Of a DNA stretch of 52,930 nucleotides, positions 14,214 to 45,566 are shown piece by piece. The stretch lies in assembly GCA_030608565.1 (NCBI GenBank), contig JAUWDY010000007.1:1-52930 (forward strand), in the 5' to 3' direction. This DNA comes from Candidatus Bathyarchaeota archaeon. GTDB lineage: Archaea; Thermoproteota; Bathyarchaeia; Bathyarchaeales; Bathyarchaeaceae. Position numbers and translations under genes: made by a program. The notes under the pieces were generated by a model. It had not been told where the DNA came from. It saw nothing but the letters and a program-made list of their open reading frames with translations, and searched no databases. Position 1 is the first letter of the stretch. The number at the start of each line of letters is the position of its first letter.

Positions 14214-14303
14214 GCGGCCGTGGTCTAGTCTGGTTAGGACACAGTTAATGGTGTAAGCCTTCCAAGCCTGCAATCCCGGGTTCAATTCCCGGCGGCCGCA
14301 CCA
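14214..14303 (+). tRNA. tRNA-Gly(UCC) with a 12-nt intron at 29/30, CCA encoded
   Basis: Acceptor GCGGCCG (14214-14220) pairs with CGGCCGC (14293-14299); A14300 is the discriminator and CCA is encoded. The T arm is CCGGG-TTCAATT-CCCGG. The anticodon arm only closes if 12 bases (14245-14256) are removed: CAG + GC pairs with GCCTG around loop CTTCCAA, anticodon TCC (14261-14263). The spliced length is 75 nt. A TATA-like CTATTTAAAT lies near 14158. It marks the right end of the accessory region. Confidence 0.9.
14245..14256 (+). other. tRNA intron, 12 nt, bulge-helix-bulge
   Basis: Intron TTAATGGTGTAA. Folding gives outer helix AGG (14236-14238)/CCT (14258-14260), central helix ACAC (14239-14242)/GTGT (14251-14254), and 3-nt bulges AG|T and AA|G, each cut after the second base, with a 5-nt end loop. 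Position 29/30 is a known non-canonical archaeal site. Confidence 0.8.
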
Positions 14304-35495: not shown

Positions 35496-35596
35496 ATCTT
35501 TAGCAACCTAATTAGGCGTCTTCAGTTACATTATTGAACAAAAGTGGGTTCCTATAACATTACACGTTTGTGCAATCAATTTCTGAGAAACATTAG

Positions 35597-35684
35597 CGGG
35601 CCCGCGGGGAATTGAACCCCGGATCTTCGGCTCTCCCCCGTGTGCTAGAAGGCCGACGCCTTATCCAGACTAGGCCACGGGCCC
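35597..35684 (-). tRNA. tRNA-Arg(UCU) with a 13-nt intron at 37/38
   Basis: On the minus strand GGGCCCG (35684-35678) pairs with CGGGCCC, with discriminator G (35597); CCA is not encoded. The D arm is GCCTAG...AAGGC and the T arm CGGGG-TTCAATT-CCCCG. The anticodon stem TCGGC/GCCGA closes around CTTCTA plus A after removing 13 nt (35633-35645, GCACACGGGGGAG). Anticodon TCT. The intron can fold with central helix CTTC/GGGG (two G-U pairs) and bulges TA|G and AG|A. Spliced length is 75. Confidence 0.9.
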
Positions 35685-39925: not shown

Positions 39926-39956
39926 ATCTTAAACGATGCATGATAGCGTTAGAAAC

Positions 39957-40544
39957 ATGGTTGGATGGATCACAGCTTTGAAGCAATCGAAACGTGCAGC
40001 TGAAACGAATCGCAATGCGGAATCAAAGATAGAAGCCTCACTTAAAGAGAAGGGGGTCCTCGTTTCTTCACCAGAAGACATTGAAGAGCTTTCCTTACGA
40101 GGTTACGGTGTGTCTGAAAACGAAGGGTTAATGCTTACTTTTTATGAGGCTTTGTTTCTGCTCGGTAAGGGAATTATCGCGGTGAAAAAAGAGAAAACAG
40201 GAGGAAAAGTGAATTTTCAAACTCTCCTCCAACGTTTTCAATCTATTGATGAAGATGCTTGGGTTAGATATTTAATATACCGAGACTTACGGAGCCGAGG
40301 ATACGTTGCAAGAGAAGGCTTCGGATTAGGAATAGACTTCCGTGTGTACGAACGAGGGGAATATGGGAAGGAGACCGCCAAGTACATGATCTTTGGAATT
40401 CAGGAGGGGCAGCCGGTTTCCGTAGAGGAGTTGGCACGTTCCCTGATGGATGTTCAGAGTCTAAAAAAAAGGTTGGTGTTGGCGGTTATAAACAGAAGAG
40501 GAGAAGTTGTGTATTACTCTCTTTCGCAACTGACTCTAAAATGA
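39957..40544 (+). CDS. endA: tRNA-splicing endonuclease homologue lacking the catalytic histidine
   Basis: Homologue of archaeal tRNA-intron endonuclease. The C-terminal catalytic domain aligns clearly: YLIYRDLRSRGYVAREGFG (105-123), DFRVYERG with Tyr131, and SLKKRLVLAVINRRGEVVYY with K170/K171. Where active subunits have the third triad residue, His (KEHS in M. jannaschii), this protein has KETA (T140), and no His occurs anywhere in its 195 residues. It may be the structural beta subunit of an (alpha-beta)2 enzyme. The ATG at 39957 lies ~33 bp after the TATA box TTTAAATC; the ATG at 39936 is too close to it. Followed by hisS after 21 bp. Confidence 0.88.
   Translation: MVGWITALKQSKRAAETNRNAESKIEASLKEKGVLVSSPEDIEELSLRGYGVSENEGLMLTFYEALFLLGKGIIAVKKEKTGGKVNFQTLLQRFQSIDEDAWVRYLIYRDLRSRGYVAREGFGLGIDFRVYERGEYGKETAKYMIFGIQEGQPVSVEELARSLMDVQSLKKRLVLAVINRRGEVVYYSLSQLTLK

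Positions 40545-43882: not shown

Positions 43883-45566
<1,684 letters not shown>

Follow-up and report, generated by a model that had tools for sequence, protein, structure and literature searches.

A histidine-free EndA homologue as the predicted structural subunit of a two-subunit RNA-splicing endonuclease in Bathyarchaeia

Introduction

Archaeal EndA enzymes of four known types have already been identified in genome sequences, in a study that includes Bathyarchaeia (PMC12918454). The alpha2-beta2 type is found in Nanoarchaeota, Thaumarchaeota and Crenarchaeota, all of which are rich in unusual tRNA introns (PMC4090602). In Aeropyrum pernix, the enzyme is built from an alpha subunit of 186 amino acids and a beta subunit of 170 amino acids, and a Lys in a loop of the alpha subunit is held responsible for its broad substrate specificity (PMC6379350). 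The beta subunit of Pyrobaculum aerophilum is 96 amino acids long and has no N-terminal domain, and the EndA of Methanopyrus kandleri is devoid of the Crenarchaea-specific loop (CSL) (PMC6379350). For the ARMAN-2 enzyme, PMC12397907 describes a phosphate that is contacted by a conserved Tyr and a conserved Lys.

The present analysis concerns a gene for an EndA homologue in the window, i.e. the whole stretch of 52,930 nucleotides that was analysed. Its product very probably serves as the structural (beta) component of an archaeal RNA-splicing endonuclease of the ordinary (alpha-beta)2 type, and we refer to it as beta and to its paralogue in the same genome as alpha.

The histidine-free EndA homologue

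Translation of the gene (Table 1) yields a protein of 195 residues with no His at all. Pfam assigns the families tRNA_int_endo (E 1e-21) and tRNA_int_endo_N (E 1.9e-10) to it, both above the cut-off, and the protein therefore carries the N- and C-terminal domains of EndA. Its predicted fold agrees with this assignment, as it resembles the Methanocaldococcus jannaschii enzyme (1a79) with a TM of 0.88 by target and also matches the structural chains 3ajv_A, 3iey_B and 3if0 from the A. pernix and N. equitans enzymes. The named database relatives belong to Candidatus Bathyarchaeota. In the alignment to 1a79, the segment KETAKYMI lies opposite KEHSVYLV, so that Thr140 occupies the catalytic His position, while Tyr131 and Lys171 line up with the catalytic Tyr and Lys. 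Translation and alignment agree with the original prediction, which had described a His-free EndA homologue of this length with a conserved Tyr and Lys and with the His replaced within KETA.

An ATG at 39936 would open a longer reading frame with one additional His (MHDSVRN...). The congener G003, which is 98% identical, has ACG and no ATG at the matching site; this supports the start at 39957 and disfavours the earlier one. The total lack of His is incidental, because 14 of the 51 orthologue rows are likewise entirely His-free and because a protein of this length would contain no His with a chance of about 3% at the His frequency of its neighbours (1.8%). The loss of the catalytic His is a different matter and, judged from the alignments, is not due to chance, since it is universal among the orthologues.

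Table 1. Positions in the window of the beta subunit gene, its triad codons and the candidate substrates
Feature	Position	Strand	Details
endA beta, predicted non-catalytic (structural) RNA-splicing endonuclease subunit	39957..40544	+	195 aa; PF02778 + PF01974
Tyr131 codon, catalytic Tyr position, kept	40347..40349	+	Tyr in 51/51 orthologue rows
Thr140 codon, catalytic His position	40374..40376	+	T35/P6/S6/A3/V1, His 0/51; alpha paralogue His 42/42
Lys171 codon, catalytic Lys position, kept	40467..40469	+	Lys in 51/51 orthologue rows
pre-tRNA-Gly(UCC), probable substrate	14214..14303	+	12-nt intron 14245-14256, 5' strand of anticodon stem (about 29/30)
pre-tRNA-Arg(UCU), probable substrate	35596..35684	-	13-nt intron 35633-35645 (37/38); removal gives tRNA-Arg(tct)
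16S rRNA gene, probable substrate	43883..45566	+	Insertion of ~180 nt between about 44031 and 44212, BHB-like ends

A predicted catalytic paralogue in the same genome

The window's own genome (G000) is a bathyarchaeial assembly of 1.76 Mb and 98.5% completeness. A protein search (E 1.9e-16) and a Pfam family search both show exactly one other EndA in it, at C12:66604-67128 on the minus strand. The alpha sequence reads GCDFAVYKQGPGVDHAPY...TVRKRF, and the full Tyr-His-Lys triad is read from GCDFAVYKQGPGVDHAPYM...TVRKRF. This protein therefore qualifies as the catalytic subunit, alpha, which leaves the structural beta role to the protein at 39957-40544. An alpha4-type enzyme, defined by a single EndA gene with a full triad, does not describe this genome, which has two EndA genes and a beta without His. 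The original prediction had regarded beta as a probable structural subunit paired with another EndA that is catalytic and encoded elsewhere, and had proposed a search of the complete genome for such a Tyr-His-Lys protein; the search returned the expected partner, and the pair is present in most relatives.

The alpha protein contains an insertion, YGKPxGIxKPKxxxF, that is invariant among alpha sequences and absent from beta. It lines up with the loop of the A. pernix and S. tokodaii alpha subunits, i.e. with the CSL, including its conserved Lys, and assigns the enzyme to the CSL-bearing subtype. The predicted alpha monomer resembles A. pernix alpha with a TM of 0.90. The RtcB ligase is encoded in the same genome.

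Beta carries an RRGE motif (residues 180-183, window 40494-40505), followed by V-YY, and the motif is invariant in a 14-row orthologue alignment. At the same position alpha shows an acidic stretch, PDLE. The presumed L10 loops, as read from the alignment only, are acidic in alpha (PDLE) and of mixed charge in beta (NRRGE), and the RRGE motif may mark a contact between the two subunits.

Conservation of both subunits among relatives

EndA was searched for in 61 genomes, i.e. the own genome and 60 relatives. A match was obtained in 60 of the 61, and 49 contained at least two. The resulting alignment holds 51 rows for beta and 42 for alpha, with the own protein counted twice in each because two overlapping loci were recorded. 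Tyr, His and Lys are each present in 42 of 42 alpha rows, and the beta rows, without exception, have an incomplete triad in which Tyr and Lys are retained and His is replaced, mostly by Thr (Table 1). The same pattern is seen in 110 further bathyarchaeial beta rows, which partly overlap the set of 51: His is absent from all 110, and Tyr and Lys are kept. In the tree, alpha (support 100/99) and beta (99/91) are cleanly separated, and the division between them is therefore old.

In 40 rows from genomes elsewhere in the class and phylum, the His position is usually taken by P, G, A, T, S, V or E; Tyr is sometimes Phe, and Lys is nearly always kept. The lone row of the phylum sample with a Tyr-His-Lys triad (L242) clusters with M. 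jannaschii and apart from beta in the tree. It comes from a genome with an estimated contamination of 7% and may be foreign.

Some relatives yielded just one of the two EndA genes, for which gaps in the assemblies are the simplest explanation. In G001, a member of the same genus represented by a single contig of 92% completeness, alpha is found at L254 and no beta match was obtained at E values up to 10; here, beta was likely lost in the assembly. In the congener G002, the sequence of the beta gene breaks off at a stretch of N, and a true absence of beta from this genome was accordingly rejected.

Candidate substrates in the window

Three probable substrates of the enzyme lie in the window (Table 1). 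When the intron is removed from the first, a standard tRNA-Gly(tcc) results; as it stands, ARAGORN labels this gene Thr(GGT). The tRNA-Gly(UCC) intron is non-canonical in that it lies in the anticodon stem, which bears out the earlier claim that this genome has such introns. Automatic annotation would mislabel the gene as a tRNA-Thr(GGT). The earlier count of three intron-bearing pre-tRNAs holds for two, Gly(UCC) and Arg(UCU); a third was not identified, and the third tRNA reported by ARAGORN, Gly(GCC) at 756-832, needs no intron.

The insertion in the 16S rRNA gene is A+T-rich and lies within the loop of a helix. In G015, the site is uninterrupted and the helix reads CCCCGGGAAACTGGGG. The insertion is shared by G003, G014 and G001, and its stem shows a change on both strands that preserves pairing (ACTC/GAGT in G001). 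Its ends are able to form a structure that resembles a bulge-helix-bulge (BHB), with a GGG/CCC central helix, A-rich bulges and an intron stem of CCACGC/GCGTAG. The insertion is probably a 16S rRNA intron, and we infer that EndA removes it together with the two tRNA introns.

A probable two-subunit splicing endonuclease and the alternatives

The assignment as structural beta rests on the sequence, the paralogy, the conservation and the predicted fold shown above, and the way in which the subunits assemble and share the work is deduced by analogy from relatives of known structure. Two beta and two alpha subunits would form a heterotetramer in which alpha provides the Tyr-His-Lys triad and the CSL-like insertion. 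Both bulges of a BHB RNA would be cleaved by the pair of alpha sites, after which RtcB would join the exons. Beta, which has lost the His of the triad, would not cut alone; it would space the active sites of the two alpha subunits so that both bulges can be cut, and would help to bind the RNA.

The invariance of Tyr131 and Lys171 in the 51 orthologue rows, together with a Lys that is nearly invariant over the phylum sample, could also be read as the signature of a stand-alone or co-catalytic EndA that works by Tyr and Lys without His. Such a new catalytic arrangement is very improbable and was rejected, because a paralogue with the full triad exists in the same genome; the original prediction had reserved it for the case of a sole EndA, which does not apply. 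In addition, Phe replaces Tyr in several members of the phylum, and T, S, P, A, V, G and E all occur at the His position. This position is free to vary, and beta therefore has no conserved substitute acid or base. That the His was lost through a sequencing or assembly error, or that the gene is a decaying copy, has a negligible probability. The intact, 98% identical orthologue of G003 has the same residue at the His position, His is absent from all orthologues, which rules out a sequencing error as the cause, and the frame is open with conserved motifs on its flanks.

Against the assignment as structural beta stand the relatives with one gene of two, such as G001 with alpha only, and the fact that every bathyarchaeial beta row keeps Tyr and Lys, which goes beyond the obvious need of a pure scaffold. 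A His-less beta that keeps both residues is mildly unusual and is a small unexplained point. One possible reading, although it is the less probable one, is that beta is structural with respect to cutting and that its Tyr/Lys pocket still contacts a phosphate of the RNA or lends stability to the interface, which would account for the retention of the two residues; this would refine the structural assignment rather than oppose it. The conservation of both residues despite the loss of His favours it, as does the parallel to the ARMAN-2 enzyme described in PMC12397907. However, both residues sit in conserved core motifs (DFRxYeRG and KKxLxLAV) and could have been retained because the fold requires them, and other families tolerate the change from Tyr to Phe. 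It is doubtful that the Tyr-Lys pair kept across Bathyarchaeia still joins the reaction or substrate binding, for example by holding a phosphate of the RNA at the other two sites, which would make beta half-active and more than a scaffold. Alpha and a structural beta together give this genome all parts of a conventional two-subunit splicing endonuclease, and its introns need no new chemistry.

Comparison with known systems

A close parallel is the (alpha-beta)2 EndA of A. pernix (PDB 3P1Z, 3AJV), which is likewise encoded by two separate genes and combines a catalytic alpha subunit, with Tyr-His-Lys and the CSL, with a full-length two-domain beta subunit as its structural partner, as in Bathyarchaeia. 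The bathyarchaeial beta is, however, far nearer to catalytic EndA (1a79, E 6e-26) and keeps Tyr and Lys, whereas a sequence comparison scarcely picks up A. pernix beta (3p1z_A, E 0.99). The CSL-bearing catalytic alpha and a structural beta are also shared with the P. aerophilum enzyme (PDB 2ZYZ), but the bathyarchaeial beta has the N-terminal domain that its P. aerophilum counterpart lacks.

The alpha4 EndA of M. jannaschii (PDB 1A79) has the same two-domain fold and is the best full-length single-subunit sequence match to beta. It is encoded by one gene with the full triad, whereas in Bathyarchaeia the His has been lost from beta and is supplied by a second gene. The (alpha-beta)2 enzyme of M. 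kandleri (PDB 5X89, a subunit fusion) resembles the bathyarchaeial pair in having a separate EndA-like beta and a catalytic alpha, with N-terminal domains on both, but in M. kandleri beta the Tyr is gone as well (FRAF), whereas the bathyarchaeial beta keeps it. The two-part arrangement of EndA is already known from related archaea.
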